Shown: positions 6,231 to 53,863 of the stretch, piece by piece
Layout of the letters: every line of letters starts with the position of its first letter
Numbering within the stretch: position 1 is the stretch's first letter
Source of the DNA: Dysidea avara
Lineage: Eukaryota > Porifera > Demospongiae > Dictyoceratida > Dysideidae
Length of the DNA stretch: 64,000 nucleotides
Assembly: GCF_963678975.1 (NCBI RefSeq)
Contig: NC_089281.1
Span: 11,619,277 to 11,683,276, forward strand
Direction of reading: 5' to 3'
The notes under the pieces: model-generated
Told to the model about the DNA's origin: nothing
The model's input: only the letters and a program-made list of their open reading frames with translations
Database searches by the model: none
Position numbers and translations under genes: made by a program

Positions 6231-6514
6231 TAGTCTGGCGCCGCCCGCCCCTTCGCAAAAAGTAAGGGTCTGGAGAAATACAAATACCTCATCATTTCAA
6301 AAGGAATTCAATTAGACAGCGCACGTAATGCTTGTTACGTCAGATGATTGCACTTCAATTCGAACAAAAGCATTGTGTTGCCAAGGCGATTTCTGTATGA
6401 ACGTCATTGGCATGCACTAATTGGCTAGCGCCGAATCTGGGCGCTAGAAATGATTTAGTATCTGTATTTCACCAGACCCTTACTTTATGCGAAGGGGCGG
6501 GCGGCGCCAGACTA
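6231..6514. mobile_element. 284-bp MITE with perfect 9-bp target duplication
   Basis: The ends TAGTCTGGCGCCGCCCGCCC and GGGCGGGCGGCGCCAGACTA are perfect inverses and the inverted repeats run on for over 40 bp. ACCTTATTG flanks both sides (6222-6230 and 6515-6523). A 9-bp duplication suggests a Mutator-like mobiliser. The interior resembles 1100-1200, so 895-1290 is a relative. Confidence 0.85.
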
Positions 6515-6591
6515 ACCTTATTGGTGCTTACTGTACACAACCAGCAAGATGAAGTAGTCCAGTCGGTGGTCTCATAGACTCAATACATTAA

Positions 6592-6716
6592 CCTAGTAAT
6601 CTCAAGTACTATGAAGTTTTTTTACAGATTTGTGTTCCCAGGTGGTTCTAGAACAAATTCAGCTTGGTTGCCCAAGTGGCAACTTTGGGCAACTCTGGAA
6701 AATTGTGAAAATTTAA
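6592..6716. repeat. Left terminal inverted repeat of the PIN-CXC element
   Basis: It contains TTGGTTGCCCAAGTGGCAAC within a self-complementary TTGCCCAAGTGGCAACTTTGGGCAA block, possibly a protein-binding site. A GTGAAAATTTAAAATGGCC motif at its inner edge recurs at 6845. Confidence 0.8.
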
Positions 6717-7030
6717 AATGGCCTATATGACTATGACCGGCTCCAACAGAAAAACTTTTTTTGTGTAATATGTCTAATATAGGGTTATTGGGGGTGCAGA
6801 ATTCATTTCTGGTGTTAACTTTTGAATCTGAGGTGTAGAACATAGTGAAAATTTAAAATGGCCACCGCAGAAACAATTCACTACAAAAATTAATGCACGA
6901 TGCTTTTAGCATACGGTTAGCTATGGTTTTTGTAGATATTTTCTCATGTCATTTTTTCCACCATAGCATTATATACAAAAATTTAGAATGATTGGTTGAG
7001 ATTACTATACTATAAAACAAAGCTAAGTAG

Positions 7031-8912
7031 CTAGAGCATGTCTAATTCAAAATCCTCTTCAGCAATTATGCAGTTTTCATCATGAACATCACCAGACTCT
7101 CCTTCCTCTTCATCTTCGATCGCAGTGTCACTTTCAAAATAGTCATCATCTGCCTCATTTTCATCTTCTTCACTGCTTGTTCCAGGTCTCACAGAGTGTG
7201 GATTACAGCAGTCTTCTCCACCAGAGCAATTGCAATAGGAAGTGCATGGTACATGCTTTTTGTGACAGCTGCAAGCTTCAGAACTGCATCGCTTGCCTTG
7301 TGCCTTGCAGCTACACTTTATTAAGTCAATTAGTTCAGGTGGAGCTGGAGCACCTGGAGCAATTGCAGGAATCGGAATATCATTTTGGATAATCCATCCA
7401 AAGTGGGTAATGTCTGATGACTGGTCAGGTGGTGCCTGCTGGTCTGCTGCTTTCCATAGCATTACCTGTAGATGTGCCCGCAAAACATGCAGCAAGAGGT
7501 TGGCAGATGTTGGAGGTAAAGCCATGATTTTTGTGGCTTTCTTCTTCTTAGTAAATAGTTTGAAACGAGCATTTTCCATTGAGGTCCCGCTAGGCTGACG
7601 ATAAAGAGCACAGAAAAATTGTTGAGCCGCTTCCATCAAATCAGTGTGGGTGGCGTCTACCTCACCAAGTTCATGGGCTAAACCTGGGAAGTTTCCAGTA
7701 AGCAGGGTGTTAAGTGCACTGATTTTACCCTTGCCATATGGGTACGATACTGTGTCACATCCACTTAGGGCATGCATACCAAGGAGCTGAAAGCATTTTT
7801 CGCCCAAGTCAGCACAAGTAGCATTAATGTCCAGCACTGTCCCATCCCATCTTTCCATCTGTACCTTACATTGCAGTCCAGCTCGATGCACCCAATAGAC
7901 CAATAAAACAAAGACATCAGTGTCATCACTAAGAACACGAATCACACTCTTGCCATGGCTAGCAGCCTGTATGACATACGAAACCATTGTGACATCAGCT
8001 TCATCATGACTAAAGGCACCATCATCCCTAGTTTCCATTGTCACATTGTTATCCATGCTGAAGGTGCACAACACACTTGCCAACCGTCGCTTGTTGTTCT
8101 TGCTTTTGAGAATTGCATCTCTTTTGGGAAGGGGACTAGTGATGGAGAGCTCGTAGTCAACTACCACCTCCCCAGCACGCCGCATTCTCTCATGATCTTT
8201 GGCAGAAGTGTCATTGTATTTGTCAAATACAATGATTTTCTCAGTAGCATCTGGATAACGACTAATCTTACTTTGAATGCAAGCAATCAAATTAGACAGA
8301 TTACCACCATGTGGCCACACAGTGTGATAAAATAGCTGCGAAACATCCACTACAACAGTTTCAGGAGTTACTGGTAAGACATCAAGCACTCCAAGACGTT
8401 TAACTAGAGCAGACTTGTTGGCTTTGCGGAGACAACTGTGTTCATCTAGAAGTGATGAAGGAACTGAACATAGCTCATATGTAAAAAGGTGCTCAAGCTT
8501 TATCTTTCTCCCACCTATCAGGATGCTTAGGGTTTATAGGTTCACACACTTTAGCACAAAATAAACAGTGATTTTTGAACTGAAAATCACCTACTTGTGA
8601 TCTTCTAACCCTAGCTGTTGGAGCCTCTGTGATGTCAGCTTCCGAAGCCTTCCTCTTCCTTGACACAAGTTTCTTTATATGATCCTTTGATGTATACGAA
8701 CAATAACAGTTCTTATGGAGTTCAACTGATGCTTGTTCTCCATGAGAATTTAGAATGCTCTGCAATTTGTTATGAAGCTCCTGGTCACCACGCTCCACTG
8801 CACACTCTATCAGCTTCTTCACTGCTTTTTGTTTGAAAGTGCTAAATTGCCCAGACTTACTACAGATTGGAAGAAAGCACTTTTGATCACCCAATGTAGC
8901 CATCGGAAGCAA
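7031..8912 (-). CDS. PIN/FEN1-like domain protein with C-terminal CXC cysteine module (element-borne, interrupted)
   Basis: There are two minus-strand frames. The N-terminal frame (8912-8493, 139 aa) has cysteine/histidine clusters (CFLPIC, CYCSY, HCLFCAKVC) suggesting zinc binding. The second frame is open from about 8505 to 7031, with a 452-aa part from 8389. It carries ordered PIN/XPG-FEN1-like signatures: an early VVVDVSQL aspartate, IIVFDKYND followed by K/R-rich ERMRR, HDEADVTMV, VLSDDTDVFVL, and SGCDTVS before a GKGK turn. It ends with a CXC-type module (KCSCKAQGKRCSSEACSCHK, then CTSYCNC) and a long acidic tail. The frames are offset and meet at 8493-8505 without a convincing intron, so I infer a frameshift or internal deletion. 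The family seems widespread and multicopy in invertebrates. Nuclease activity is inference. Confidence 0.7.
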
Positions 8913-9349
8913 AAGAAATGTGAAAATTGTTGCAGAAATATGTATTGCAGGATGTCAAACACCTAAAAAACAATTTTTTTAAAGTTGAAAGTAAAGTTTA
9001 CAAAAATGAAACAGAAAAACGTACTGCATTAATTAGAAAACCAGCCAAATGCATCAAATCTACACTTACTCTACTCCTGATCCAATATCAAACCTTGTAG
9101 ATTATCATACAACCAAAACTTAAGTCTGAAAACGAGTGGTAGCTACTCTTCTGCTCCCTTTTAAAAATTAATATAGAACGTCCGTTACCATGGCAACCAA
9201 TTACGTAATTTGTTTTTTGACCTCAAATTAGTATCATCTTGTGCAGAAAAATGTGCTGAATTCAATGGTGCCAAAATTACTTTGATTGTATAAAATCCCG
9301 AAGAGTTATGAACACTAGCTCATATGTAAATTTATGACTTCCTGCATAT

Positions 9350-9473
9350 AAATTTTCGCCAATTTTCTAGAGTTGCCCAAAGTTGCCACTTGGGCAACCA
9401 AGCTGAATCTGTTCTAGAACCACCTTGGAACATAAATCAGAAAAAAAACTTCATAGTTCTTGAGATTACTAGG
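9350..9473. repeat. Right terminal inverted repeat of the PIN-CXC element
   Basis: This is the inverted counterpart of 6592-6716, ending AGATTACTAGG, and includes the same GTTGCCCAAAGTTGCC / TTGGGCAACC block. Confidence 0.8.
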
Positions 9474-9474
9474 T

Positions 9475-9915
9475 TCACAAAATTTCGACTAGACTAAAGC
9501 ATTAAGCACATGTTCATATGCGCACGCATACGTGTTCAATAGTGTTTTCCGGTCTGGTAACGCCCGCCCCTAAACTACTTATTACGCAAAGGAAATCACG
9601 TGCACCCTGCCTGGGGCGAGATTATGCTGTGAATCATTTGCATATCCCGATTCCTCCATAGATTTTAGAGGCACCTGATACACAGCAGGGTGACCTTACA
9701 GTTAGATCATAGCTTTTTCGCTGGATGACAAATGATTTCTATTCAGCACACACACAACTGGATTTGTACACAAAACAGATGACAAAAAGTAGTAAACAGT
9801 TCAGCACAGTATAAACACTCTCACAAGCATGGCAGATAATATATTACTGTACAAACAATTAAATGTCTCTTGACTTTAAAATAGGTGATGATTATACTCT
9901 GAATTAAAAATGTGA
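9475..9915. other. Non-coding, includes the LC3 3' flank
   Basis: No separate gene seen. The part nearest 9915 is expected to be the 3' UTR of the minus-strand LC3 gene. A lone GGTCTGGTAACGCCCGCCCC near 9551 resembles MITE ends at 6231 but has no partner. Confidence 0.45.
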
Positions 9916-13026: not shown

Positions 13027-16000
13027 TTGCATTTGTTTTGCTTTAGTGGCATGTTTTGGGAGACAAAGCAATGTTCTTTGTGGAGGACCAGAGAGTGGCC
13101 ATGCAGTTGAAGCAAGTTGGGAAGCTTTCATCCTCTGGTGGAGAACTGAGTGTTGTAGTGAAGCCTTCTGCTCCACCTACAAGGGGTATGTCTTTGTGTG
13201 GTGTAGTGTGCGTGTGTGTGTGTGTGGGTGAGTGTGAGTGCATGCATGTAATGTGTGTCTACGTGCATGTAATGTGTGACACACATGTGATGTATGCGTT
13301 ACTATTGTTTGTCCTTCACACAGGAGGTGGTGGAGGAGGACAGAGGTTCACAGATAGCAGATCAGTCAGAGGTCCACCAATACAGCAACAGATGAGCATG
13401 GAAGGGATGTCTGATGGCTTGGAACAGGATAACACTGAAGTGATCCTTGTGAGTTGGGGTGTGGCTTTCCCTAGTTATATGAGGGTTTCCAAATAATATA
13501 TCTTATGCAGTGGATTAGAGTAGTGGTGGCTACAAGAAATAAAGTTGGGTCAAGAAATGTAGTGTGGGGCCTTAACTTTGTATGTCACAGGTGATTCTGT
13601 AGTGGTTGGTGAGAGGTAGTGATGGCTATTTTATTTGAGTGGTGGTCAGTACTGACCACTGTGGGCACATCCCTGCTTATGGTAGGTAAATATAATCATG
13701 ATATCATGTCACATGATGTGATGCAAAAATTTGAAAGGTTATGAGTTAGTCCTCATTAATTCCATTATAGTCCATTTGTGGTATACTTGTTTATATCTGT
13801 CATCTGTCATCATTAGCATTGCTTGTCACAAAGATATGATCCCAGTACTAAGGGGCTTGACCTGTCTGACATGTTCCATGATCAAGGTAAGTGAAGCTTG
13901 TGAACTGCTCGTACAGTTTTATATCTAGTTTGACCTGCTGCGTGCTAGTGTATGTATGCCTCTGTGACTCTTGCTGTGTTATCTGTCTATGGGACTAGTA
14001 CTTCCAAGCCTTTTTAGCGATCACCTCTTTAATAAGCCCATGTCATTATAGTGAAAATGTCATGTAGGTTTCAAATACCTCATTTATAAAACCACCTCAT
14101 TTATAAAACCACCTCATTTATAAAACCATCTCATTTATAAAACCACCTCATTATAGTGACCATCACGAGTGTAGCTCAGGTGTACTTCATTACCTCATGC
14201 ATAAGGCTATAGTACCCTTTTTCACAGCTTGGATTAGATATATACTGGGGAGTGTCCTACTCCCATATACCCCTGTAGAAGGATGTATCATAAAGTGATG
14301 GTCTGAGTTCGTCCATTTCTCTTTGTATAATTAATGGCATTAATTGATCATAGTGTTAATTGAATGTATGCCTAACAATGTCACTAGCAACTGAACCTCA
14401 GGTTTTCAGCATTTCTCACTGAACTACAAGCGTGGCTCCAGGGATTCAGACTAACGGCAAAGGCATTTCTCACTAGGCCATTCACCAATACAGCTGTTCT
14501 CTTTGAAAGTTCTGAGTTTTATGTGTGTGGCATAACACTTACAAATTCTGCATTTTTATAGCTTCTTGCTCATCACAAACCTGTCATGTCATTCATTACT
14601 TATGATATTCTACAGGGGTATATGGGAGTAGGACACTCTCCTCAGTATATGTTATAGGGCTGAAACAAATACTGCAGTACTTGTTAAAAGATTTTGGTAC
14701 TCACATAGTAAAATTGGTACTCGAGTACTTGTTATTAAGATTACATGACCCATCTCACATGATGTATTTGTCATCAGGGAGTGACATGATGAAGACTATA
14801 GAGTTTGAATGGTATAATTTCTTGTCAGGAACACTAACATCAGTACTGTACAGGGGCGGATCCAGGGGGGGGGGGGGGGGGGGGGTCTTTGGGGTCTGGA
14901 GACCCTCCCCTCAGGATATATATATTTTTTTATAGGCGCTTACTAATAAGCGCACAATGATAATTAATTAAGCATTGGCTATTACTCACGTGCGATATGG
15001 CTGCAAAGCGTTACAGGAGTAGTGACGAGGCTAGCAATGTTTGTGGACGGATTTCTGAGACATTGCTAGTGACAAAGAAAGCCAATTTGCAATGTTGTTT
15101 TACAGATACAACGTCCACGTGTATGAGGCTGACACACAGCTGCACGCCAGCTGAGCTACTGTGTGGTTTCGCCACTGATTATATTTTTAAGGCTTCTATG
15201 AATTGCTAGATAATCCACAAAACTAATTTTAACGCATCATCGCGTATCATATAGCTAATTGTAACTAGTAGTGCAATGTAGCTAGCTAGGTAATTTAAAC
15301 TTACAGTATAGTTATGTACTTTGTATTGTCACAGCACTGGTAGTGTTGATGACGGGCTCGAGGCTGATAACAGAACAATTTCTGCTGATGATGTGATTGT
15401 GTTGGATTCTGAAGAGGAATCTTCACAGCAAGATGATCAGGCCATTGTACTGAGTGAGGAGAGCAATTCAGACAGAGAGTCGGAAAATGACATAGAGGGG
15501 CATAACACTAGTAGCAATGATAACATTGCAGTTGACACCACCAGTCATCTATTATGGTCCACTCAGTCAGAGATTGCTAACTAATGACCAGGCTCAATTA
15601 GCTATTCAGGATGCAATAAGTAGTGGGAATTTTGGAAAGATTGCACAATTAAAATCTCGAATCAATCTCACAGATCAACAAAAATATTTTCTGTTGAAAA
15701 GGCATTATGTTCCTTCTATCAACTACAAATTTCCCACTCATGTGATTAACAAGATTCGTCGACATTTCCAACACAGATGGCTAGAGAAAAATCCTGGCTT
15801 AGTATATTCTGAGTCACAAAGTGGAGGATACTGTAAGTATTGTGTTCTATTTGGTAAGACCGAGCCAACTGTGGAGGAACTTGGTGTTTTTGTAACCGGG
15901 CCCTTCACTAATTTTAAAAAGCCACGGAGCTGTTGGGGAAGCATTTTCATGGCCTTGGAAATTCTAAAGGAAACAAAACTCATCAAAATGCAGTACAAGA

Positions 16001-19000
16001 TGCAAATATGTTTGTTAGAAGTATGGAAAACATTGATGCAAGAATAGATTTCCGACTAAACACCGCAAACAGCAAGACAGCAGCTGAGAACAGACTGAAG
16101 CTCCGATCAATAGCAGAGACAGTAATTTTTTTTGGAAGGCAAGGCCTTGCTTTTCGTGGTCACCGCGATGATAGACCTTCTGTTGAAGAAAACCCAAACA
16201 ACAATCATGGTAATTTTCTTGGTTTGCTCAAGTTTCGTGTACAGGCTGGTGATAAAGTTCTTTCAAATCATCTTGAATCTGCTGCTGAATCTGCTGCTGA
16301 ATCTGCTGCTGAATCTGCTGCTGGCAATGCTATACACCAGTAAAACTATTCAAAATGATCTCATTTCAATTTGTGGTGACCTAATTCGTAACAAAATTTT
16401 AGAGAAGATTCGTCACGTATGTAATTTTTCTGTCCTAGCAGATGAAGCTACAGGTGTGGCCAATGATGAGCAGCTATCAATTAGCATCCGCTATGTTGAT
16501 GAAGGATCTCCAACAAAAGTGTTTATGGGATTTCATAAATGTGTCTCAGGGGTTACTGGACAAGCAATTGCCAATGACATACTTTCACAACTAGAAAAAT
16601 GGCAATTGCAGTTGCAATTTCTTCGTGGTCAAGCATACGATGGAGCTGGAGCTATGGCTGGGAAATCTAAAGGTGCAGCTGCTTGTATAACTGCAAAACA
16701 CCCTAAAGCATTGTACACTCACTGTACTTCACACAGACTAAATCTCTGTGTGGTCAAATCTTGCACTATCAGAGAAATCAGCAATATGATGCAGTCAGCT
16801 GATAAAGTATCACGATTTTTTAGCAATTCTCCAAAAAGGCAGTTGGCTTTGGAGAAGTGGATTGACAATCTGTTTGCCAATGAAAAGCGTAGGAAGATAA
16901 AGGAGATGTGTCGTACTCGCTGGATTGAGCGACATGAGGCTTTTGAAAGTTTTATGGATTTATTTATGCCAATAGTATGCTGCTTGGAGGAAATAGCCAA
17001 CAGTTCTCCAGCAGAATGGAATGCTGAAACCAGATCAGATGCCCAGTCACTGTTTTTTACAGTGTTCAGATTTTCATTTGTCATAGCTTTGGTGGCTACA
17101 CGGAATGTGCTGTCATATATCAAAGGGCTGTCCGTGAAACTTCAAGGTCGCTATGTCAATGCAATTCGGGCTCACAGAGATATTCAGAATGTGAAATCTA
17201 CTTTGGTTAAGCAGAGGTGTGATGTGGAGAGATTTCATTCGCAAATATACAATGAAGTTACAGTATTATGTCAGAGTGTTGGAATTGAAGAATCGGTACC
17301 AAGTGTTACTAACAGACAGCAAAACAGACAAAACCTTCCATCCAATAGTCCCAGTGAGTATTATAAGCGCACAACAACAATTCCTATGCTAGATCACCTG
17401 ATCAGTGAACTAAATGTTCGGTTTACAGAGTCTTCATCTCAATTTCTCTTACAGTTTGCTCAACTTTAACCATCAGAACTAATTAAAAATCCAAGAATAT
17501 AGATTTTGATGATTTAATAAGTTTTATGAGGATGATTTACCTCTATCTAGGGGCTTTTCATGGAGAAACTACTGGTCATCAGAAACATGTAAAGCTGATG
17601 CAGAAGCCTTAAACACCCCTGAGAAGGCATTAAAACAGCTTGACAAGGATTTGTATCCTAACATTTATACGTTGTTGACATTCGCTGCCACTGTTCCAGT
17701 CACTAGTTGTGAATGTGAAAGATCCATCAGTATGCTCCGATTAATCAAAACTTCTTTAAGGAGTACTATGACACAAGAAAGACTAAATGGGCTAGCAATG
17801 ATGCAGTATCATCATCAAATTCCACTTGAGGCTGATGAAGTAGTTGAGGAGTTTACCACTCGACAGCCAAGGAAACTTCTGTTGTAATTTGCCTGCATGG
17901 GGACAATTCAAATGACAGTAGTAATCCACTAGGCTGTAGCTACCTATAATAAAATACACTGTACATAACAATAACATAATAAGACAGTCAATAGTCATTC
18001 AATCAAAGTACATTAGTATAATGTATGGATCTTTAATGTGTACTCATACCAGGCCATAAATTTGTGTCAGATTGCATCAAATTCAATCTCAGAGGGTTGA
18101 ATTTTCAAAATTTTCCTGGGGGGGGGGGGGCATGCCCCAGACCCCCCTAGAATGCTCGTGCTTTGCACTTCGCACACTGTGCAGTGACTCTTACCCTTAG
18201 ACCCCCCCTCCTAAAATCCTGGATCCGCCCCTGCTGTAATACAGTGTGTGTACCATTGTTGTTACTTGAAAAAACTGTGAAATGGGTATGACTACAAGTA
18301 GCTGGTATTTGTGAGTGCTTGATCGTTAATTCTAGAGAGTACTCGAATACTAAAAAACCATGATTGCTTCAGTCCTAATATATTATATATGAACTCTTGG
18401 CACCAGGTTGTCATTTAAAGTCTAAAAATTTGGTTGTTGTGAAGTACCGTATAACAACAAATATTGGCGAAACTAATATTTGGCAATTTGCTATAAAATT
18501 GTGGGTAGAGGTGTGCGATAACAAATTTAGACGTATCAGTAAAGATGATGTTTTTTCAGTGTACTGGTGTAATTAGGGTTGAGAGGTATTTAGGTATTAG
18601 TAGAAAGTTACCGAAACGGTATTTTAAAATACCGAAATACCAATTTTAATGTAGCAGTTAAATTTTTGGTAGCTAGTGATGGCCATACATGAAGCTAAAC
18701 TACATGCAGACACTTCGCACAGACTACCTGCATGTAATACAGGTGTGGGAATCATAATGTACCCATCCTTTAGATACTGAAGTATTTTTCTCCATACCGT
18801 ACCATTCTTCAAAGATGCAATACAGACAGTGGTACTATTCTAAAAAACATAACACATGTTCTGGCACATAACAAACCAGTGATTGATAGTCAGCAGCTTA
18901 GTCGACAAATAATAGTTCAACTACTCTAATAGAACACACACCATTGATGAATTGAGCGATTATTTTTATGTTTAAATGATCAAGTTACTTGTATAATAGA

Positions 19001-22000: not shown

Positions 22001-25000
22001 TAAAATCTGTTCTTATTAAACACAGTATAGCCCAGGAAGCTTAATCTGTGCTGAAGACTTTGTTGCAAGGTGGTTTTTTCGTTCTGTGATTATTGTACAT
22101 GGGCAGATTAAATTACTCTAATAGAGCAGTCACATAAATCCTCTATTAATGCAGTCAAGTGTATATCTGATCCTTCACTGAATTAGACATATTAAAGGCA
22201 CTAGTAATGTAAATTCTAGGAGACTTTGTATGCACACTGCAATTTGATCAGTTTCATGTGTGTACTGAACGTTGACAGCGTTACTATTCACAACAGTCTT
22301 CATTGTCAATAAATAATCCATTATACTGGATTAATAAAAAGTACATAAACTAGATGAATTTAAAATTTTTAAGAGGGAGAATAGGGATCGCTGAAAAAAG
22401 CCATGAAACAAGAAGGGATTGCTGGGATGGTAATGTAAACCACAAATCCCTATTTTGACTCGTTTCAAAATAACCACAAATCCCTATTTTGACTCGTTTC
22501 AAAATGACGGAGTATGTAACTAAAGATTTATGACAGAGAATCAAAATAGGGATTTGTGGTTTACATTACCACCCCAGCTATCCCTTCTTGTTTCATGGTT
22601 TTTTTTTTCAGCGATCCCTATTCTCCCTCTTAATTTTCAATTTTTTATTAATACAGTATGCCAGTGACATGGATAAAACTCTCTAATAGAATAGTCGAAC
22701 TATTCTTTGTTACTACAGTTTCACTTGAGCTCCTACAAAATTCAACACATCCCCCCTCTACAAACAATATTATTCTATAACAATCATGTAAACTACTTGT
22801 TCTGCCCAACTTCACTCCAATACTAAATGTATTGTAAAACCCTAACTAGACATATTCCAGGCTTCACATTGATACTAATGTTTTGGCCAATGACCTGTGT
22901 AACAAGAGCAGACCATACCAACAGTCAGCTTCTCTGGTGTTTCACTACTCATACTGTATTGCAGTTGGTGTCACTGGACCTTAGCTCTAATCGACTGAGA
23001 CAGTTAGACACTTTTTCTACTGCTATATCCATGAACCTGTCATTGCTACAGATACTCAACCTGTCAGATAATCAGGTAAGTGTGTGAAGTAGTATATGTA
23101 GTTGATGGAGGGGATGTGATGTGTTTTGTGTGTTGTAGTTAAATCATGTGGAGGAGTTGAATAAGGTAGCTACTTCAACAGTAACAAATCTCACTTTGGA
23201 GGGAAACTCCCTTGTAAATTCTTGTGGTGATTTTAGTAAATATTCAAGGTAATTATATTACATCTGTTTGTGTGTAGTTGTATGTACATCCATTGTTTAT
23301 ACTAGTGGCTATGGTGTTAAATAATGGTGTTTTTTTCTTTCTTTCTATAGTTTAATGAGAGCAAAATTTCCCAATTTACAAATTCTAGTAAGTTGCTAAA
23401 CATTTTTGCTAGTAGGTAGGTATGTGAAAACTAAACTATTTATATCACCATAAATGGTGAAACAGTTCATAATGGAATTTTCTTGTGGAGATTTAGTTAG
23501 TATTGTCATCATCTTCATAAGTGCTATCTTGATGAGAAGCTACTAAAAGCCATGAAGGTAGGACAAGTCCATGGGGAATGTGTAATAATATTGCACAAGT
23601 ACTGAAAATATTTTATGCGAGCTGATAGACCCTGTACAAAAACTAGAGGAAGGGACTTGACGGGGCTCAATACATATGTTAGTTCTATTTAGTTTGTTGT
23701 TTGCAGCGGTATGATAAACAATTGGAAAAATGCTGATGTTATGGAGTAATGACTTACAATGATGACAATGTGTGGCAGTCACAACTTTTACGTCAACAGT
23801 AACAGTAGTCATCAATGATTACAATACAATCGTTGTTGTATGATTTATTACTTTCAATAGTATGACTACATTTAAATAAAAATATTTTTGTTAGCGCTTA
23901 GTGCACATGGTCTTGTCCTACCAAAAAGCCAGAGTATTAATGCTATTAATTTCCTGCAATGATAACACAAAAATTCCCTTTTAATGTTTCACCATATATG
24001 GTATAATGCTTGATATACCAGGGTAGGTTAATGTGGTTCATATTGCCTGTCTTGAGAACCCCCTTACACCATATTTCATACTGGGGTAGTGACTTTACAT
24101 ATTGAGATATCAGATTGTCGTGATACACAATTATACCAATGCAATCAATTTTTGATTATGAAGGTATGAAAAAAGCCTGAGTTATTAAAATTTAATAATA
24201 TTCTGGGTTGTTTCTCAGTTTCCTAGAGACTCTTTAGTTTTTTAACAGTGCAATGGAGTTATAGCTGGTACTGCACGATGGAAATTTTATTGTCACCACA
24301 CTGTGTATCAGCTGATATACTGTTTCGCACATCACACTGTGAATGTCCCATCTGTTACTGTAGGATGGTCAAGTGTTACATAGTCCTGTCAAATTTGACC
24401 TACCAACAACAAGCTCTTCATCACTACCTGACACTAAGGTAACCTGCTAGTGTATGACAATAGTTGTGAGTGCATGAAGTATTTCATTTTGGGTCACTAT
24501 ACAACGGGACTAGTTTATATAGATAAGGTCAGGTCACAGTTGTATAATCCTTGGACATTGACCAGACAGTATTGGTTGGTACTAAGGTTATTTGTAACAT
24601 GATCTTACAGTACGATAGTACTGTATAGTAGGGACCACAAAGTTTTTAAAATTTATTAATCAGAATTTTCTATTGACTGACTGAGTAACTGACTGACTGA
24701 GTAACTGACTGACTGATGCCTTCAGACAAGCGTAACTTGAAAGCAGCTAAGGCTACAGGCTTGATTTTTTCACTGTTCGACATTGCTTCAGCCCAAGAGG
24801 TGCCTTTTGGCATACTGCAATACGTACAGTGTATTCTTCATGGACTTACCAGTGTCCTCCTTTGTGTCCCATTCATCTTTGCTGACAGATAAAAGTGTTG
24901 ATTTGGCAGTAGCACATGATGGCTTCCCATCATAATGGAAATCCTATGTATTTTTTCATAGTGGCTACTTCGTCGATTGCAGAGGTGCTTTTTGAACAGT

Positions 25001-28000
25001 TCTTGATTTGTACTACTGTGTAACAGGTTGAACATAGCCAACAATGAAGCGTAATGGATACTTCACTTTTCAGACAATAATTGATATAACTTGGGGGGGG
25101 TGGCACCATTTCTTTCTTTTGGTATACGTGGATTGCAGAGGTGCTTTTCGAACAGTTATTGATTCGAAATGCTGTGTAACGGATTGAACATAGCTGACAA
25201 CGGATACTTCACTTTTCAGATGATAATTGATATAGCTGGGGCACGCAGCGCCATTTCAGATGCTGTATGCGTGGGTTCACTAGTCATAATAATTGTTTAC
25301 AAAGAAAGTGAACGAATAAATACACACAAAAAGCTGGAATTTTCAACTAGAGTAGGGGGACCACAGCACATTGATAAAAAGTACTGAAACAAGTTGGAGT
25401 ATTGCACGATATTAAATCACAGCGAAACGATAAGAAGTGTTATATCCCTACTGTGTTCAAGATACCACTATGGAAATGCACAGTAGGGATATAACACTTC
25501 TTATTGTTTTACTGTGATTTAATATCATGCACTACTCCAGTTTGTTTCTGCACTTTTTATTGATGTGCTATGGTCCCTACTCTAGTTGAAAATTCCAATT
25601 TTTTTGTATGTGTAAGTTTTGACAATGAATACAGTTATCTTTACACTTCACAAAGTATCATACAAGAGTAAACTGCGTGCTTTTATAACATACAGGAATT
25701 CTCAATTAGTGTTCCACTGATACAGAATAATACCCACCTACCAATACCTAGCAGTAAATTTCACAGATACTGATACTGATAATTGCCAATTTAGAACGCC
25801 ATTATAATTTGACATTGTCTGCTATACCACCAATAACACTTTCACTATTATATGTACCACTTTGTTAATCCAGCTATCTTGTTAATCTGACATAATTTTT
25901 ATCCTGACCATTGTTAGATTACAAAGGTTTCAGTTTATTCTGTTTGAGAGTTTATTCTGTTGAGACTACCTCATCATTCTGTATGGCTACATGTAAATTA
26001 AAATTTTTAGTTTTAAGATTCTGTATGATATAATTGCCTATTAGAATTAAGTATCCTTTGTGTCACCTTATAAGGGCATGTGGATGCTTTGATGTGTCTC
26101 TGTGTTTTGGGGATGTTGGTAATCGAATAAAATTATTCCCCATGATATTCTGACCAGAAGATGTTTGGCTGTGTGGGGAAACAATAGCATGTGTTTCAGT
26201 CCCAGTGGCTGGTGATCCTGTAATGGGTAGTTGTGATTGTTTAGTCTCTTGTAATTGACTGTTTGGTGAGACGGTTTGTTTAATTGTTTTAGTGGTTTGA
26301 TTTATGTGGTGTGTATTGTGTGTGAGTGTGTTTGTCTGTGTATAGTGTGTATAGTATTAGTCCGTAATGGTCTCAGACCCAACCATTGCATTACTCCTTG
26401 TAGTTTTACAGGGTCTCTTGCATGTGATTTTAACCATACCACCCAATACCAAGACTGGCTATATTGTATACTGGCATAACTATTGTTGTTTTCCACTCAT
26501 GTATAGCCCAGCTACCTAATGAACGATGAAGTACAACAATTCTTAAAGACATTCTTAGAGCAGTAAGTCTCTCAGTGTAGTAGTCACCATTAACTGTATA
26601 CATGTAACATGGTAATTGTATAGCACCTTGCAAATTGTATGTTAGATAATAGGTTACTGATAGCCCACATCAATACCATGTAATTACTAATGTATAATTC
26701 ATCTCGTAGTAGCTGGTACTGGGTTTTTGAGGCTATGTATGGCTTGGTGACGTAGTCTAGTGGATGGTGTCAATTTACATGTGGTATGGATTAGTACATT
26801 TCTAGGTAATATTTCAAGGCCTTATGTTGGAGTCCTGTTAAAATTGCTAATAGACTGTGTCCTGTAGCAGGACTTGTTTGAATACTTACAAAGTTGTTTC
26901 TACATTTTTTATTAGGTACTACAATATGTACGATGACGATCACTCACGAGAGAACTTGTTAAATGCTTATTCCAGTGAAGTATGCAATCTTCTACTGTAG
27001 CCATTACCTTACAAGTTATCCTATTTATTTCAGGCAGTGTTTTCTTTATCAGTAGTGACATCAGAAAGAATGAAGTACGTAAGATTGTGTAGTTGTCTTT
27101 CTGAGATTCAGATTGATGATGTTTGCCACAGGGGACCGTATCTAGGAGATTATTTCAAATGCAGTAGAAATATAATGAAAGCTTTTGGAGGTAGGGATTT
27201 CATGAGGATGATATGTTTGCACATATACATGTTCTTATTTCTGTCTAGCAAAACGCATGTCTTTGTTGCAACGGGGAAAGCTAGATGTTGTCAAGGCATT
27301 GAACGACCTCCCCAAGACTAAACATTTGGCATCGTCATTTGTCGTGGACGTCTCCCGGGCAACGGTTTGTGTTTGACATACAATCATGACTGTGTCCAAA
27401 GTTTGTTGACACTTTCTAGCCATCCTTTGCTGTTTTCTCAGTGTGGGGTCTGTTTGCTGAAGTTGGTAGTAGTAGTAGTTCTGGCCATCAAGCCCCAGTC
27501 AGGTCTTTCTCACGTATGTTTGTTATTACATCAGCCCAGGGAAGGTAAGTGACACCATAAACTAAACACCTACGTAGCTACCGACTTACAATTTGGTAAG
27601 TCAGAGTCACTGCTAGAAATATCAATCAGCTGAGACATACAAAACAAATCAAATTCAGTCAACAGATTTTTAAGTACTTGTCCAATGCCAAATTCTGATT
27701 GTTAATTCAAGCAGTGATAAAATGATACAGCAGTGTATAAGTAGTGTATATAGCAGTATTGATACAGCAGCATACAGCATAATTGATACAGCAGTATACT
27801 ACAATATTAACAGCTAAGCTTTTGTATAGAAATGGCTGGGAGTACATTCCTATGGCTTGTAATTTTAAACTCGGCTTTTAGTTACATTGTTTATACTAAG
27901 AATGAAGCACTACTTTTCTTGTTGTCAAGGAAAGTGTTAAATTGTATTTTATTCCCATTAGGACTGTCTGATTTCTCTCTTTTCTGTTTCAATACAAAGC

Positions 28001-30937: not shown

Positions 30938-33900
30938 TCATGATTTAGACCAGTGACTATAATTACCTGACATGCAATCCGCAGGCTTACAAAACGAAGT
31001 TGACATTGTAAAAGTTGTACCAGTTAGTGTACTAAGAAGTGGAATAGGATAAAGTGATGGCTTAGTAGTAGTCTTTATACTCTTAAGAGGAACAAGGGTT
31101 TGTCTATCGATCTTTTCTATAGGTACATCAATGTAAAATAGGTTCTCAAAATATGACATGCGCACTGGTCTTGGCACCTCTCCGATATGGACGTCATTAT
31201 CACCTTCCAAAATACAAGAAATATCCATTGAGTCTACAAGCGTGACAGGAGAGCTTTCATCAATTCCAGAGTCAACGCTCTCACTTCTTTCAACAAGACT
31301 TAACTGTGTTTGCAATTCTACTTCTTTTTGTTTCTCTATCAAAGCTGCAGCCATTTGTTGTTCAATGATCTTCTTCTTTTCTATTTCCCTTTCCTTGGCT
31401 TTCTGTTCTTCCTCATGATAACCATGATGGAGTCTATCAAGTCTCTTATGCTGGTAAAACACTAGACTGATTCTGGATGGTTGCTGTCGACAGGTATTGG
31501 CGATGGGTGTGGTAGCATGGCGTTCTTTCTTAGCACATTCTACAAGGACTGAACCATGGCCCAGAGCCAGTGCCACACCCCCGCCAACACCCTCAAATTC
31601 TTCAGCTGATTTCGGAGGTGTTAGGTTGGCCATCGGAGATGGTGGAACAGTTGACGGTGGTGGTGGTGTGGCCTCTGTTTTAACTCCGAACATCTGTGTA
31701 GGGGTCATGGGGGTACAACTAAGCTGTGGGGACTTCACTGGGGTTGGAAATAACGAGGAGAAGGAGCCATGTATGGGAGATTGTTGGGAGAACAGTGGGG
31801 TAGTTATGCCATTGACGTGTGAAGTGTTGCGAGTACCATTCAACCCATTCATGTTAGTGTCTTTCTGTAGGAGAGCTTGAATGGAGAATCCATTGGTGTG
31901 TTTCACTGGTGTAGTTGGTGAAGGCATTGCTGGTTTAAACAAATTGGGGGTGAACCCATTATTGTTAGTGCTGTGGTTGACTGCTGTAACTGTAGGCTCC
32001 TCTTTGCTTTTTGGCTTCCTTATCTCAATACCAGGTACACTCTCGGTTGGACCATTTTTTAAAACATACAGCGGTAACACATGTAGTTGTTCATTCTCCG
32101 GCTCAAGTTCAGTACCATAAATACCAGACTTTAAAATAGTACACAACTGTAATGAAAAAGATCATCAAGTATGATTGTCATTCTGCAACAACAATTGAGA
32201 TTTACATATACACATATTTTTAGTGCAAGTGATCAGTTTAACGTAATCCATACCGGTTTGGTATGTGTGTAGGCATCCTCCTACATACGATCTGCCCAAT
32301 GATGTGCGGCCTTGAAACACAATGCACATACACAGCCTTCACTTTTAGTTATGCGTACTATGTGTATATACAGGAGCCTTATGACACTTATGAGCTCCAA
32401 CCAAGGATTGGTTACAATTCCAAAAAAAATATCAGAAACTATGCTACTTTTTCACCTTTCATAGCATTCACCAACAGAAACATAATGTCATCTATATAAG
32501 CCAGAAAACTCAAGTTCTGCAATGCGTAAATGCAAATCAAACAGCAAGCAGCTAGCCATTACCCTAAAATCAACAAAAAAACCTTTAGATTCACTAAACT
32601 TTATATTTAGCTTGTGTCTAAAAAACTTTCATTACCGTACTATGAGACTTCTAACAGTACACAAGTATACAAGTATACGTTTAATGTGTTACTATGAATC
32701 CACTAATATGAAAAAAATATTAACACTAAAAGAAGCCATGGAGTCGAAACTATTTATATAATTATCTACATAAGAATAAGCAGTTTACCTAACACAAACG
32801 CTCAAGTTTGAAGCCGTATGACCAGCACTACATTTTGTAAGTAATCCATTTAAACATTATAGCTGGCGATTATGCCTCATGTGGTATGTTCGGAATCTCT
32901 ACTGACAAGAGATTTATAAGCCTTAAATGTTTCTACAACAATTCAATACTTCAATTATTAGACTTCAGATCTTCACAAAAGGTAGACCTACTAATATCAG
33001 GCGGGTGCTAATCACAGACACGTGCCAGCCGAGTGCATGTTTGGCAACCTTGCTTCACTCTAAGGCTTCTGCTTATTATCGCTTGATTTGTAGTCTATTT
33101 ACAACAGGAAACTAAGCAGGACAACTGATTAGTCTACAAAACCTATTAGCTACTTTTAAAATGATACGCTCCAGATCACTTTTGATGCAGAAAACCCAAG
33201 TCCAAGGTGATTAAAAGGCTTTATTGCAAGAATACGCTACTAATGTCAGCTGGATATAATGTCAGTATTCCAAACATTATCAATAAATGTTATGTACTCT
33301 CTATACAACTTCACAATGCATTTACTAGATAAAAAACTTACAATAGTCGATCCGTTTGCCATGTTGTAGCGATCAAAGTGACTGTGAGCACAGAAGTCCA
33401 TACAACATGTGACACCTGAAAATGGTCTCTCTTCTCCGAGACCTAACCTACAGTGGTACCCATCACGTTCTGTTGCAATCTAACAAAACACAGGACAGTA
33501 TAGAGGTTAATAGTATAATATTTGTACACTACCTGATTCTGAAAGGCCACAGGAGCTAAAGATTTGTATAAAGGAGCCAGGTCTGTCGCCAAACTCTGTA
33601 AGTGCCTTGTTAGATTTTCCTCCTGTGAATTGAATAACAAGTATGGTTCCTCTGTTAGCATTTGTGTACACACAAACAAAGTATTGTATTCATAAGAAAG
33701 AAACCTTTTCAGCGGGGCCATTGATCTTAAACTTCCGAGGTTCCCTACTCTTGGCGAACTTGCACCCATCATAGTATACAGTCCACGAGCAGCCAAATGA
33801 ATACGAAGCCCCACAGATGTCAGGATCTTTGCCTTGGCAGGCACAAGTCTTGCTGCAAACACAGAAAAGCATGCTCAATTTGCAAACTTCAAAAATTCAA

Positions 33901-36606
33901 TCCACAACACACAGTCAAATTTACAAGCCTATGTAGTGTAGTGTTGTATCACTGTACCTATTGCTTGTACATGATTTATTACCAATACAAATTGTTATAG
34001 GACAAAGTGGTATGGCAGAAGCCTTGCCAACCGCCAGTACAATTCCCGGATGTGATGCTTACATAATATGAAGTATTTAGTTACATGGCACGTAGACAGA
34101 CAAGCAGTTACCTTTCATTTGTGGAGCATCGACGTGATGTTGGATTACCATACTTCGGCAATGTACCCGTGAGGACTTCATACAGAGAATTGGCTCTCTT
34201 TGAGGGAACCCCGTCCCAGAATACAATACTAACTACTGTACAGTTAGTATTGCATGTGTGATTCTTATGGTGGCGGAATAGCACAAGGAACAGCTCTTCC
34301 TTGCTAAGACGACGAATCACCTAAACAAACACAAAGTTGCTATGTTACCGACTGGCATACCTCACTGGAATGTGAATACATACAAGAGTGACAATGATGT
34401 CAATTCTTAAGAGATTTTCAAAATTATCAGTACCTTTAAATTACATATTTTAAAAGTAAATGGTAATGACTTAACCCACTATTAAAAGTATTTATTATTC
34501 ATATCTCACATAAAAAAGATCATTTGGTTTCAAATAATGCATCTATTATCTTAACAGTATTGAGTGATGTTATAGCCACAATGAGTAGTACATTGTAAAC
34601 TGATGGAAATACAATTACTAGTACAAACAAGATCATGCTACCCACACTACACACACGCACGCACACACTACAAAGGAAGCACTGATACTTACTGCTTCAG
34701 TTGTGGGACATCCATCAGCTGTCTGAGCTTCAATCCCAACGTAGGAGAGCTGCATGATAAAACAGAGTGTAAAAACTACCCACAGAGTAGGAGCACATAA
34801 CATCCTCTTACCTCCAACATTCTCAATTGAACTCCACTAACTTGAAACCTACAGATAAAGGAAAAGATACATTTAAATGACAAGGAACAACTTTACAAGA
34901 AAATCTATTGCACTATGGAAAACACAAATATAGTGTAATGTGTTTGTTGTTTGTACCTTTCTTCCAACACTTCTCTGAGTTCCTTCTCTGAGCCAGCAGC
35001 CCCCAAATGTATATAAAATGGACCATCATCTTCTTTCACTATACAACATGTTTACACCAGTCAAAGTTGTGACCCATTAAGGTGCAACACATTTATGAAC
35101 AAACTGGAGATGAACTAGCTGACATAAACAAACATCCCTTCAATGTCAACAAATCAGTCTATTCATGTTATATTACAAAATTATAACAAGTCTATGCAAT
35201 CACCTTATATGGCAAATAGGGGAAGTCTTAAGTACACAGAGACTTATAATTCTATGGACAAAGTTATATAAAGCTTCAATAGAAGCCCACACATCCAGTG
35301 CCTGCTAAGATAGGAAACAATTAAAGGACACTTAATTAACATTACACAACACAATATGGCACATATTTGTAGAAATAAGTGTTAATTTGTAAATTCCACA
35401 TCAAACAACAACTATTTGTACTTGGTTTGTTTGTTCTACAAGTGCACACAACATGGTTGGCATAACAATCTTGTACTGTTTACAAAACTAACCAGTGGGT
35501 GTAATATAAACAACAAACTTACCCTCACAGCCACAGGCATTTGGACCATTCTCTTTCTGTGGTGCAGACCGAAACTTCTTCCTAAGCTTCTGTGGATGTT
35601 AAAACAACTCAATTAATTCACTGACCGTTTAATTATTACTTATAGTGTACTGTATAATGATAACGAGATGACCACTTTCGCCACATGAGTGACGTAATGA
35701 ATTTTGTAACCAAAGCTTCCACAAGTAGCCTAACTCCCACGTATTTCAAACATTTTTCACCTCTACACTGCCATAATTGGAATACACGCTAATTGCTCCA
35801 ATAAGCTTATATGATTACACCTATAGCTGTTATAATCATACGGCTTTTTGATAAGGGGTTTCGGCTGGATGGATGTGTATTGGGTCGGTACAACAGCCAG
35901 TCAAGTGCATGTCTCACCTTTGCTGGTATGCCCGAGCCCTTCCCTTCAGGGGTATGGAACCCATTCAAGTGATCTTTCACCACAACTTCCTGATTGGTGC
36001 CATTCACTAGGGGATAATCCCCTACACTGTTGTTGAACAAGTGTCGACGCACTGCATTTGCAGTGAAATTTTTCTTCCTCAGAGCTGGTTCAGTCTAAAG
36101 TGCACAGAGAAACAGATAGTGGAAGTACATTATTAATATTGTATATCATAAAAACCACAAGATAAATGGGCGTTCATGTATGTATTCACACAAGTTAATG
36201 CACGTTTTAACTTGCTAATGCCAACCTTTGGGGCCCTCTTCAGTGCCTCGCAGCGTCTTTTTCTACAAATCTGGCTGTTGTTCGGGTGCATACATGCGCT
36301 GCAAATTCCACATTTATCTTCGGGTTTCCTTAAACACCCAGAACATTCGCCACAACGTTTTCTCCTGTTGCGTTTAGTTATCGAAGAAAGTTGGGACGTT
36401 AAAGGAGCAGGTAACTGTTTCTCTGTCGTCTTTACTTCAGGCGAATTTTGTTCTGTGCTCGGAACAGCGACAGAAGGCGATGTAGTCGGAGAGGGCGTTT
36501 CTTCCACTACAGGTTTAAGGTCTACAGATGGGGGTCTCATTATGAACGGCAGACCCGGAATGCCAGAGCCGTTAAAAAATCTGTAGGGATGATACATCAC
36601 TGCCAT
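30938..36606 (-). CDS. TET: TET 5-methylcytosine dioxygenase with CXXC zinc finger
   Basis: This Fe(II)/2-oxoglutarate dioxygenase oxidises 5-methylcytosine in DNA. Eleven exons: 36606-36226, 36094-35918, 35589-35523, 35038-34957, 34848-34812, 34749-34693, 34320-34112, 33852-33705, 33622-33533, 33479-33342, 32146-30938; 2595 nt, 864 aa, in phase. Exon 1 holds a complete CXXC domain ([20 protein letters not shown], then [20 protein letters not shown]). The Cys-rich region follows ([38 protein letters not shown]). The double-stranded beta-helix has the HxD iron ligands in [20 protein letters not shown], the distal His in [14 protein letters not shown], and the 2OG-binding Arg in [12 protein letters not shown] ~160-residue Pro/Ser/Thr-rich insert splits the catalytic domain, as in vertebrate TETs but shorter. 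A charged helix and unique tail follow. Key residues are intact, so activity is expected. The protein is about half vertebrate TET length. Confidence 0.95.
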
Positions 36607-38685
36607 TCTCCTTCAAATTTATCTTTTCTTCTTTTTTCAGTAAATCAATCTAATCATTTCTCTGAGGCTGTAAAGAAAATTAGACGATCACATCGCTTCT
36701 TCAAGACAAGGTCGATAATCAGAAAGTTTCGTTAAAACAGTTACTTACAAATATCACATTCAAACGAGTGAAATAAAATCTATAATTAAACTATAATACA
36801 ATCTTTACGAAAATACCACACAATTATAGTTTCCCCGCAATGCACTCTCCAACCTTCTCCTAGTGACGTAACATCCTATTTGATTGACGCAATACAAGAC
36901 TCGCAATCACGCAATAACTTCTTGCTAGAAAGCAGCTAAAGCATACGAATTAGTAATGTAGTAGTAGCAACCAAAGCTAGAATTAAAATATGGGTTACAT
37001 TTTCTTGATTTTCCTTGCTTTTATCAAGCTAGAGATGTGATATAAAGTAAAGCAACATGTACAGCCTTGTAAAGCAACAACATTACGATGACTGCAGTCA
37101 CTAACTGGGTGGAACAATTACCAAGTCAATGCCATAACCAAAAAGCTACATTTAACAAGTTAGTGAATTGAAGTCTACAAGTTGCCATGACCAGCTGCAT
37201 GAGGTAGAACACTTGTTCTCACAGCTGATGTTCTGTGAGATAGGTTACTACTGGTACATGCAGGTATTAACAAGTCTCACAGAAGGTTCTCATGTTTAGT
37301 TTAATAGGATACTTGGTACAAGATCACAATTTGTCAATTCTTCAATATCATCATCACATCAAGCGTTACAGGAAGTTGTGAGTATGTAGCACATTAACAA
37401 ATCCATTTTATAATTCTTATGGCTTTCAGGCATAATCTTACAACATATACCAGAGCCATTTAGCTAGGTAGCTATAGCAAGAGTAAAAGTACTATTGGCA
37501 AAAGTCAACACTTATATAACAAGTCAGGGATTTCTCAGGGGACTAGCGTTGTGTTAACAAGTACTGAGACTTTTGACTGTTGTATTTTGTAGGTGGTGAG
37601 TGCTGGAGGTCTGGGGGGGGGGGGGGGGGAGGAGAGAGGTAGAGGGCATATCCTGTCAAATATTTGTAGTAGATATAATTTGACACCTAAAGTTGTGGTG
37701 TGACAAGCTGTTAAAACTTATTGAATGAGAGAAAATTATGATAACTTTGGTAATGTGAAGATTCGCCCCAGCTTAGGCACAAAAAGTCATTTCATGGTGT
37801 AGCATTTGTAATTATCTGCTTAACCAATGCAGCATGGATTGTGTAAGTTAGATTATATAGTGTGAAATTGTAGACAGAGCCAAGTAAGTATAAACATTGC
37901 TAGTAAATCGTGCTCAGTTGTAACCTTGCAAGCCATCAAATCAATGTGATAGCTGAATGTGGTATCAACTAGCTTCAGTAGCTTGTTAATAAACTGGTTA
38001 AATGTGACAGCCTGGTAGCCAAGTAGCTATAATTTCCAGGTAATGTTTACCTTCGTCAATGATTTCCCACCCTAATACAAACAAAGTTACACAATCCTTG
38101 GCTAACCTACTAACAGATTTGGACTAGCTGACCCTAACACTGCACCCAGCAGGTAAATATGTCAGGCCGTTGTCATGGAGTCAATGGCTTGGTGACGAGT
38201 CATTAGTACTTCTCTACCAACAGATGTGATGACACCTACAAATAAATGACCTGACTGACCTATGTACCTGGTGAATCATGACATGTCATCATTATGACAT
38301 AAGGGTAGAAGTGACAAACAGGTATACTGTGACACATACTATATGTATATAATAGGAACAGGTTTGTATACAAACACTCAGGACATTTACCTGTGTGTAT
38401 AACACATAAGATGTCCTAGTCATCATTTATCATGAGAAATATAACCCTTGTGTCGGGCTCGCCTCGTACATACATTCCATTGGCAGGCCATAAATCAGCT
38501 TGGAAGTAGCACTGAGCTTGTTAGTACCTATATTTGGTAGGCCGAAGCTGGTGTAATTAATACAATCACTCAATACGTATGAGCTCATTATTACATGCAT
38601 GTATTAAACAGGTTTAGAGTGTTGATATACACTGATAGTCAAAGACTCACGTGATAGCTGACAATGGTGCGCTGCTAAGGGGGCT
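36607..38685. other. 2.1-kb divergent intergenic region, TET and SMG6
   Basis: This separates the divergent TET and SMG6 starts and should hold both promoters. A G-run lies at 37613-37629. No gene, RNA or clear transposon end was recognised. Short opposite ORFs near 38604-38963 are shadows of SMG6 exon 1. Confidence 0.5.
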
Positions 38686-51900: not shown

Positions 51901-53664
51901 ACTACACAAGCAAAAACTAAACAATTTTTATGCAAAGTGAGCCAAACATCTAATAGAACAGTCACCAAAATTCTTAACATCTCTGCAATGGGCAGTATTG
52001 GGACCAACAATTGTTGCTGCAATATAAAAGGAACTGGACCAGTCTTTCAGAGGTAAAAAATATGGAACCAGAGTAGTTGGAACAAACAATTTGTCTGAAC
52101 AGAAATTTCAATAGGCATCATATAGCCAACAATGCCACATTATTGTGCTCAGTTTGCAAGGCCCCTTTCAGACATTTTGGCTACATTCACAATCCAAAGA
52201 GCAAAACACTCTAACAAAGCAGTCACTAAACTTTCTTAGCCCATAATTCACTATGGTAAAATAGTATTGCTATATGGTTGTAGTCAGTTCGCTGGGTGAC
52301 ATGATTTCATTTTTTAATTTCAAACAAACATTCTAATAGCAAAACACTATTTTAATAGAGCAGCCACACTTACTGACCTGCAGGAGGCTCATCATCGTCA
52401 CTTCCTGTTGGAGGTGGTGGCGGAGGAGGAGGTGCAGCTTCTGGTGGGGGTGGAGGTGGTGGAGGCGCCGCTGCTTCCGGAGGTGGAGGAGGGGGTGGGG
52501 CTCCAGATGGACCAACTGGAAAAGAATCAATATACAACAGACATTCCCAAATATTCTGCAGTTTTTAGATTTACTCTACATACCCTCTTCTTTATGCACA
52601 ATATGGAACCCAGAATGTGTGGTTGCATATTTATAAGCAAAAAACACGGGACAAATCCTTTTACACATTTTTTTAAATGGGACAAATCCTTTTACACACT
52701 TTTTAAATTTGGTGGTCCCCTATAAATACTTACATTCTGTAATTGTAACTGGAATTGATGGGACAGTGTTCTCACTAATTTCTAGTGAAGGTAGCTCAGG
52801 TACATTAGAGCCAGCTATTGATGGTGCAATTGACTGGCCCATATCTGCCTCAAACAAAAGATCGTCAGCAACATTAGGTAAGTGAGGAAGTTGTAAAGGA
52901 ACCTCCAACTCTGGTAGATCTGGCATCTTTGGTTTATACATGACATCATCCGCAGTACCACGTAACAACTCCTCTCCTTCAGTAATGGTATAAGGAGCTT
53001 CTGAGATCTCATCTTCTTTAATAGTATCACGTGTTTTTGTCTTAACTCCCTCGAGTGGATCAAGAATTACATATTTCTTGTAAGGATTTTCAGATGTATT
53101 AAATAACAGCAGGGAGCTAACTGATGGAAGGTGCTTAGGAAGGCTGCCAAGACCTTCGCCTTCTTCTTCAACGTGGTCTTCTTCACTCCTTTCTGCAGAT
53201 TTCTGTTTCTGTGTGTGCTTCCTTACAATGGCCTTTGTTGCAAGTCTTGGCTTGAAATATTCTCTCTTTGCAAGCATCATCTCGTTCGTAACATCTGGTA
53301 GTCGGATGTCACTGCTGACTTTACTGCGTTTAATTTTCTGCAGTTGAGGATTGACACCAGCAAACAGTGTGGTATAGTCGCTAAGGAACTCAGGTGCTGG
53401 GTACTTTGGAGTGGAGAAAACTTGAGTAGCCTTACTCCTGTGATTCCGTAGTTTATCTACCTTAGCTTGGCACGTGTTGATACGATTGTTAATAGCTGTT
53501 AACTGGTCCCTGTTCTCCGCCACACGATTACTAATCCGGTTGAAGATATCGTTTGCTATCGCCTGTAAGTACTCCAATGAGTCTATGACTTGTGACAAGG
53601 ACTCTTCGCGGCGTAAATCCGGTAGTACGACCGGAACGTGGTACATCTGCACAGCTGACGACAT
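48987..53664 (-). CDS. WASHC1: WASHC1, WASH-complex actin nucleation-promoting factor
   Basis: WASH activates Arp2/3 on endosomes for retromer-dependent sorting. Four exons: 53664-52734, 52515-52378, 51821-51558, 49105-48987; 1452 nt, 483 aa, in phase, close to the usual ~465 aa. The N-terminal WAHD1 region is clear (VPVVLPDLRREESLSQVIDS, LEYLQAIANDIFNRISNRV, VFSTPKYPAPE), as are the TBR-type SVSSLLLFNTSENPYKKYV and a DVMYKPKMPDLPELEVP stretch. Exon 2 encodes the polyproline segment. Exon 3 has the WH2 motif GRANLMEAIRKAGG and a basic connector, with the C-helix-like DLLGDLHAALTRRRKG. Exon 4 supplies MMDKIAAMIPPPK and the acidic end NSDDDWDKS containing the conserved tryptophan. I start at 53664 (MSSAVQMYHVP); no in-frame ATG lies upstream in this exon. 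Intron 3 (2.4 kb) contains DIRS-like debris. Confidence 0.95.
49756..50155 (+). pseudogene. DIRS-like reverse transcriptase fragment, forward piece
   Basis: With frameshifts, the plus strand gives LSSAPWVFTKTLKSAMEILR, then AYMDDISL (the RT YxDD box), then INRKKSVMNPTQT, LGLTVDSIKM and KMKSIWAEAHKIARLGIVTA. This order of motifs matches the palm to thumb region of DIRS-type RTs. Frame changes and a C-run at 49786 show it is dead. It lies in WASHC1 intron 3, antisense to the gene. Confidence 0.75.
50160..50690 (-). pseudogene. DIRS-like reverse transcriptase fragment, reverse piece
   Basis: Minus-strand translation has ITELLQKQAIEEVQPSEGFY followed by SNLFLVPKKDGGN, then, after frame shifts, GDWLAK-type and MYHQYRKYQK segments. 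These are the RT fingers and early palm blocks that should precede the YxDD box found in the opposite piece. The two pieces meet head to head near 50157, so this is an inverted junction, either of two copies or of a split-repeat element. Confidence 0.75.
50799..50975. repeat. 27-bp tandem array
   Basis: About 6.5 units of GTTGCTCTACTCCGAGAAC followed by a variable 8 bp (one unit is 30 bp). Both strands stay open: plus gives LLYSEN-type repeats, minus gives SRTTHHRHSQSR-like repeats. The basic Ser/Arg minus reading would suit a gag-like region upstream of the minus-strand RT, which is inference. Confidence 0.85.
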
Positions 53665-53863
53665 TGTTAACTCTTTCAACTAATACCACTGTACGTCTGT
53701 TTCTTTTATCACATGACGACAGAGGTGTCTAATTCTAATAGTTTAACGCAGTAAGTTTATGCTTCTTATAATTTAATGCACATTTGTTGATTAAGCGCGC
53801 CAATTATTTCTAATTGTTATTTAGAGGTGCCTATATAAGATTTTAATCGCAGATTTTTAATGG
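53665..53863. promoter_or_regulatory. Compact bidirectional promoter between WASHC1 and WDR27
   Basis: The two start codons diverge and are 199 bp apart. The segment is AT-rich with no TATA box at a clearly informative position, and contains GACGTACAGTG/TATCACATGACGAC words near the WASHC1 side. Function is inferred from geometry. Confidence 0.7.

Follow-up and report, generated by a model that had tools for sequence, protein, structure and literature searches.

The window (the whole stretch of 64,000 nucleotides of Dysidea avara DNA that was analysed) very probably carries a cut-and-paste DNA transposon of an AcademX-like lineage within the Academ superfamily, in the form of an internally deleted, non-autonomous copy which derives from a parental element of 5554 bp encoding a protein of 1473 amino acids (aa) and which was mobilised in trans. 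Membership in Academ is judged from the architecture, the length of the target-site duplications (TSDs) and one literature statement. The preliminary description had presented a minus-strand frame as the only gene of the element, coding for a PIN/FEN1-like nuclease with a CXC cysteine module. This claim was wrong: in the longer copies the frame belongs to the 1473-aa protein, of which it represents a truncated C-terminal piece. It is not a mobility gene in its own right, nor is it cargo.

Boundaries, copies and target sites

The element contains an inverted repeat with arms of 131 nt that are 90% complementary. A search of the same genome with the left repeat (550.8 Mb in 108 contigs, the counts being lower bounds) gave at least 26 terminal inverted repeat (TIR) matches, which paired into at least 13 elements; six are as long as the copy in the window (this copy included), and seven are about 2.6 kb longer. 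The copy in the window was compared with the 12 others (L009-L020). The preliminary description had placed the borders at 6588 and 9477, but the copies stay alike beyond both. The true left end, TAGTCCAGTCGG, is at window position 6555, up to which the outward similarity extends in the 12 copies whose left end could be read, and the true right end, CGACTAGACTA, is at 9496 in the window and is common to all 13 copies. By comparison of these copies from the same genome, the element termini read TAGTCYAGTCG. The features that define the element are as follows.

6555..9496, no strand: whole element, a 2942-bp internally deleted AcademX-type copy with boundaries common to 13 copies and TSD AAG
6552..6554, plus strand: left target-site duplication AAG
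9497..9499, plus strand: right target-site duplication AAG
6555..6565, plus strand: left extreme terminus TAGTCCAGTCG, identical wherever the left end could be read (12 of 12 copies)
9486..9496, minus strand: right extreme terminus TAGTCTAGTCG, in 13 of 13 copies
6590..6720, plus strand: left arm of the subterminal inverted repeat
9345..9475, minus strand: right arm of the subterminal inverted repeat

The copy in the window is thus flanked by AAG on both sides, not by the TTAA and TTCA that had been read at the inner borders. Because the left end of L015 was masked, TSDs could be tested in 12 of the 13 copies (both flanks readable), and 11 of the 12 showed an exact 3-bp duplication (AAG, GAA, GTG, CAT, TAA, TTA, CAA, ACA, GTT, TAA, and TAG). 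L013, a 5554-bp copy, was the one testable copy with no 3-bp TSD; it starts 15.7 kb from the start of copy L014, and its site is perhaps rearranged. The 131-nt inverted repeat, the 13 copies and the 3-bp TSDs bore out the earlier proposal of a mobile unit bounded by TIRs.

Kolobok and piggyBac are TIR-bounded DNA transposons, and it had been suggested that the nuclease gene might be passenger cargo on an element of this kind with a TTAA target, each copy of the frame then being enclosed by the same TIRs and TTAA duplications. TTAA is present at the left border first proposed; however, the element itself includes these letters, which recur in the left-readable copies, and the duplications around the copies are 3 bp long and varied in sequence. 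The TTAA reading failed because 11 of the 12 testable copies have an exact 3-bp TSD, which refutes assignment to Kolobok or piggyBac. In addition, the nuclease is fused to a transposase core in one protein, and the two are found together in divergent families too. We therefore regard cargo on a TTAA element as extremely improbable.

All six short copies measure 2942 bp and are identical. The proposal that full-length copies be recovered was borne out by the seven long copies, six of which could be read whole; these are 5554 bp long, and no two of them differ at more than one position. The seventh, L015, differs from L009 twice in the part beyond its masked start. Removal of 2612 bp from the long form gives the short form, apart from one substitution found in all six short copies. 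Since divergence among the copies is near zero, the alignments indicate that transposition was very recent. The same deletion occurs at six sites with six different 3-bp duplications; thus, the deleted form moved after it had arisen. As it has no transposase core, its spread is most simply explained by mobilisation in trans by the full-length copies. All 26 TIR matches listed fall within the 13 elements, with none left for shorter derivatives of the MITE type.

Several other features were observed in the window. Adjoining the transposon, 6231-6514 holds a pair of 68-bp inverted repeats (91%) whose ends are GC-rich, probably a separate small MITE-like element, and a similar 20-mer lies at 9552-9571. 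A hAT-type transposase in pieces occupies 15496-17887, where DUF4371 covers 16126-17469 and the hAT dimerisation domain covers 17513-17887; its frame at 15496-16047 had no Pfam match. Two long, imperfect palindromes lie at 22357-22642 and 25328-25604, with a self-complementarity of about 81% and 83%, respectively. The frame at 30938-32161 has a Tet_JBP oxygenase domain (E 4.2e-10), and the frame upstream of it, at 36133-36612 (minus), gave a CXXC zinc finger below the cut-off (E 1.7e-4); the two are likely to form a TET-type DNA dioxygenase gene. A WASH complex subunit is encoded at 52720-53679 (minus; WASH_WAHD, E 2.3e-82) and, together with the TET-like gene, points to an animal genome.

The parental protein and its deleted derivative

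In the long form, two minus-strand frames are spliced via a 63-bp GT-AG intron, with boundaries GTAAGT...TTTTTTGGCAG, to give the 1473-aa protein. From its N terminus, this protein begins with Cys/His clusters and continues with a DDE-type core, which is related to Pfam DUF6589, then an XPG-like nuclease and finally a CXC tail. The supposition that a PIN nuclease is the sole product of the element was not supported, because the longer copies fuse the DDE-type core to the nuclease in one protein. The copy in the window retains two pieces of it.

8504..8505, no strand: deletion junction, with 2612 bp of the parental element gone and 2-bp microhomology
8493..8903, minus strand: exon 1 remnant of 136 aa with the N-terminal Cys/His clusters, start MATLGDQKC, and stop just beyond the junction
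7031..8533, minus strand: frame with the parental C-terminal part (XPG-like nuclease, CXC cluster and acidic tail)

The deletion or frameshift suspected at 8493-8505 is the junction of this deletion, which took out the whole stretch from the Cys/His clusters to the nuclease and with it all of the DDE-type core. The frame at 7031-8533 has 500 aa and carries the motifs that had been named earlier, but its first Met codon, at 8185, is residue 117 and lies inside the nuclease domain. The N-terminal minus-strand frame, at 8493-8954, has 153 aa. Neither of the two is an intact gene.

The deleted form might have a function of its own. Short derivatives of the P element repress the full-length element, and by analogy the deleted copies could be a selected regulator, with the 136-aa zinc-cluster peptide, and possibly the nuclease fragment, repressing the full-length element. 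That six identical deleted copies stand against seven full-length ones would agree with this, as would an N-terminal frame with a start of its own and an end just past the junction; however, simple trans-mobilisation of a shorter element explains these copy numbers, and we consider a selected regulator unlikely.

Conservation of the core and the nuclease

A protein search of the same genome gave 58 match rows, of which 13 were the element itself and 45 were others at 26-34% identity, some of these being pieces of one locus. The ends could be paired in six divergent elements from five families (L051, L052, L053, L054, L055, and L046, the last with L058), L054 and L055 being one family. All six have inverted termini starting with TAG and 3-bp duplications (GTA, CAA, TAC, TTA, TAA, and TGG), where a matching TSD was itself a criterion of end pairing for L051-L055 and the ends and TSD of L046/L058 were read by eye. 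For L051, three further end pairs looked like chance, and the pair that was kept has matching termini. When the 17 loci L034-L050 were examined for the terminus pattern at one end, three matched strictly, five matched only loosely, and nine did not match. In these divergent families, the nuclease occurs together with the transposase core.

Conservation was read from an alignment of 13 sequences from the same genome (L009 and 12 divergent ones, several of them partial), with gaps set aside. In the DDE-type core, conservation was seen at D437 (11/11), D614 (13/13), H643 (13/13), D808 (12/12), and E812 (11/12). The XPG motif residues D1036, D1077, E/D1151, D1153, D1177, D1179, and D1233 were each conserved in 11 of 11 sequences, and a C-terminal cysteine cluster follows downstream of them. 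The acidic residues of the nuclease are thus conserved as much as those of the DDE-type core. In the window copy, the motifs of this C-terminal part lie as follows.

7748..8356, minus strand: XPG/FEN1-like nuclease motifs VVVDV, VFDKY, DEAD, SDDTD, and GCDT
7244..7315, minus strand: CXC-type cysteine cluster, its cysteines conserved across the family

We built a profile (A1) of 17 family members, which consisted of L009 and 16 of the 23 divergent loci L034-L056; L035, L038, L040, L041, L044, L045, and L047 were omitted because their frames were broken or redundant. This profile matched exonuclease 1 (EXO1), an enzyme of the XPG/FEN1 family, at E 7.3e-5. The acidic motifs fell into register in this match, in support of the earlier reading of an XPG/FEN1-type nuclease. 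EXO1 residues D78, E150, D152, D171, D173, and D225 (numbers counted from the alignment) pair with the family motifs, and a GCDxxSxxxGxGK turn is common to both; the alignment does not reach as far as the first Asp, D1036. The smaller profile A2 matched exonuclease 1 only at E 0.022. An AlphaFold prediction from the single sequence without an alignment had a pLDDT of 37, too low for a usable model. The CXC-like module was likewise recovered as a cysteine cluster conserved in the family, despite matches to Pfam TCR (Tesmin/TSO1 CXC) at E 1.9-8.6, below the curated cut-off. Single proteins of the element had no Pfam match above the cut-off, and the one match in PHROGs (E 0.22) was not significant. 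Viral and prokaryote contigs yielded no relatives at the sensitivity of peptide patterns (six for the single protein and two for A2).

Ten pairs of sequences were used for dN/dS, of which only L048/L049 and L036/L039 were usable for both domains. Because the values for nuclease versus core were 0.118 versus 0.202 and 0.144 versus 0.164, the nuclease appears as constrained as the core in these two pairs, consistent with purifying selection on both. L042/L050 gave 0.167 for the nuclease and no core value, and L042/L046 gave 0.117 for the core and no nuclease value. A handful of changes underlie the ratios of L036/L037 (core 0.50, nuclease 0.55) and L054/L055 (core 0.10, nuclease 0.87), and in the remaining pairs synonymous changes were too few or saturated for a ratio.

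The core was linked to DUF6589, a Pfam family of unknown function. DUF6589 matched 4 of the 17 family members weakly (best E 3.6e-4, below the cut-off) and gave no match in the other 13, and it had 115 match rows in the same genome. One of these rows lies at L057 (G000:C1:8549300-8552299), in an open frame of 1745 aa; in the 999 aa analysed, DUF6589 scored above the cut-off (E 1.8e-14), with XPG-like motifs downstream. It aligned with the family profile over 529 columns across part of the core and the nuclease (probability 99.5%, E 2e-22). Judged by this profile similarity, L057 is a distant relative and represents a second lineage with core and nuclease in the same genome. Among the PMC papers searched, none mentioned DUF6589, which presumably resembles Academ cores; our results suggest that this family includes a DDE-type transposase core.

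These data also bear on the proposal of a new transposon class in which the XPG/PIN-CXC protein acts as the recombinase. The nuclease frame is the largest open frame in the window copy and its acidic residues are invariant in the aligned sequences, as that proposal would have it; however, in the full-length copies a conserved DDE-type core precedes the nuclease within one protein, the window frame has no Met until the middle of the nuclease, and both architecture and TSD length fit AcademX. We thus judge a new class of recombinase to be very unlikely.

Proposed mechanism and relation to known transposons

We proposed that the N-terminal Cys/His clusters would recognise the ends of the element, and that an RNase-H-like DDE core, with D437, D614, and E812 as candidate residues, would make cuts staggered by 3 bp and join the DNA. 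The XPG/FEN1-like nuclease fused to it, together with the CXC module, may process DNA or bind to it in the course of excision or repair, and the window copy, without a DDE core, would move by using the protein of full-length copies. It is conceivable, if rather unlikely, that Academ transposition depends on the XPG-like nuclease as a second active site (which might, for example, trim flaps or open intermediates and so set the 3-bp stagger), that the copies are active now, and that the zinc-cluster peptide of the deleted derivative tunes this activity. Near-identical full-length copies and identical transposase-less copies at separate sites are a natural case for the role of the nuclease, and the element is useful because that role in Academ transposition becomes testable.

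The AcademX lineage of Academ DNA transposons is known from Repbase and from papers by Kojima. Among the PMC papers searched, none linked Academ with XPG, a transposon with XPG and a CXC domain, or a PIN domain and FEN1 with a transposon and terminal inverted repeats. The AcademX nuclease is of the XPG type, and the element protein shares with XPG, FEN1, and EXO1 the ordered acidic residues and a GCD-containing turn, whereas its nuclease is part of a transposon protein. A passage of PMC9587614 lists Academ among the superfamilies encoding a DDD/E transposase. According to passages of PMC10045372, AcademH and AcademX both belong to Academ, and their TSD lengths are linked to the encoded helicase and nuclease: AcademH has a helicase and makes TSDs of 9 or 10 bp, whereas AcademX has an accessory nuclease and makes TSDs of 3 or 4 bp. 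A Pfam scan of two full-length frames gave no helicase family at E <= 1, and this, together with the 3-bp TSDs, spoke against AcademH. The element differs from AcademX in its CXC tail, which the literature passages on Academ do not mention, and the window copy differs in that its transposase core is deleted. The likeness lies in the XPG-like nuclease, in the 3-bp TSDs, and in the predicted DDE-type core (D437/D614/E812) upstream of the fused nuclease. Because core, nuclease, and TSD length all fit, we filed the element under AcademX, an already described lineage; it fits as an element ordinary in kind, and a reading that had seemed exotic is returned to a known superfamily.
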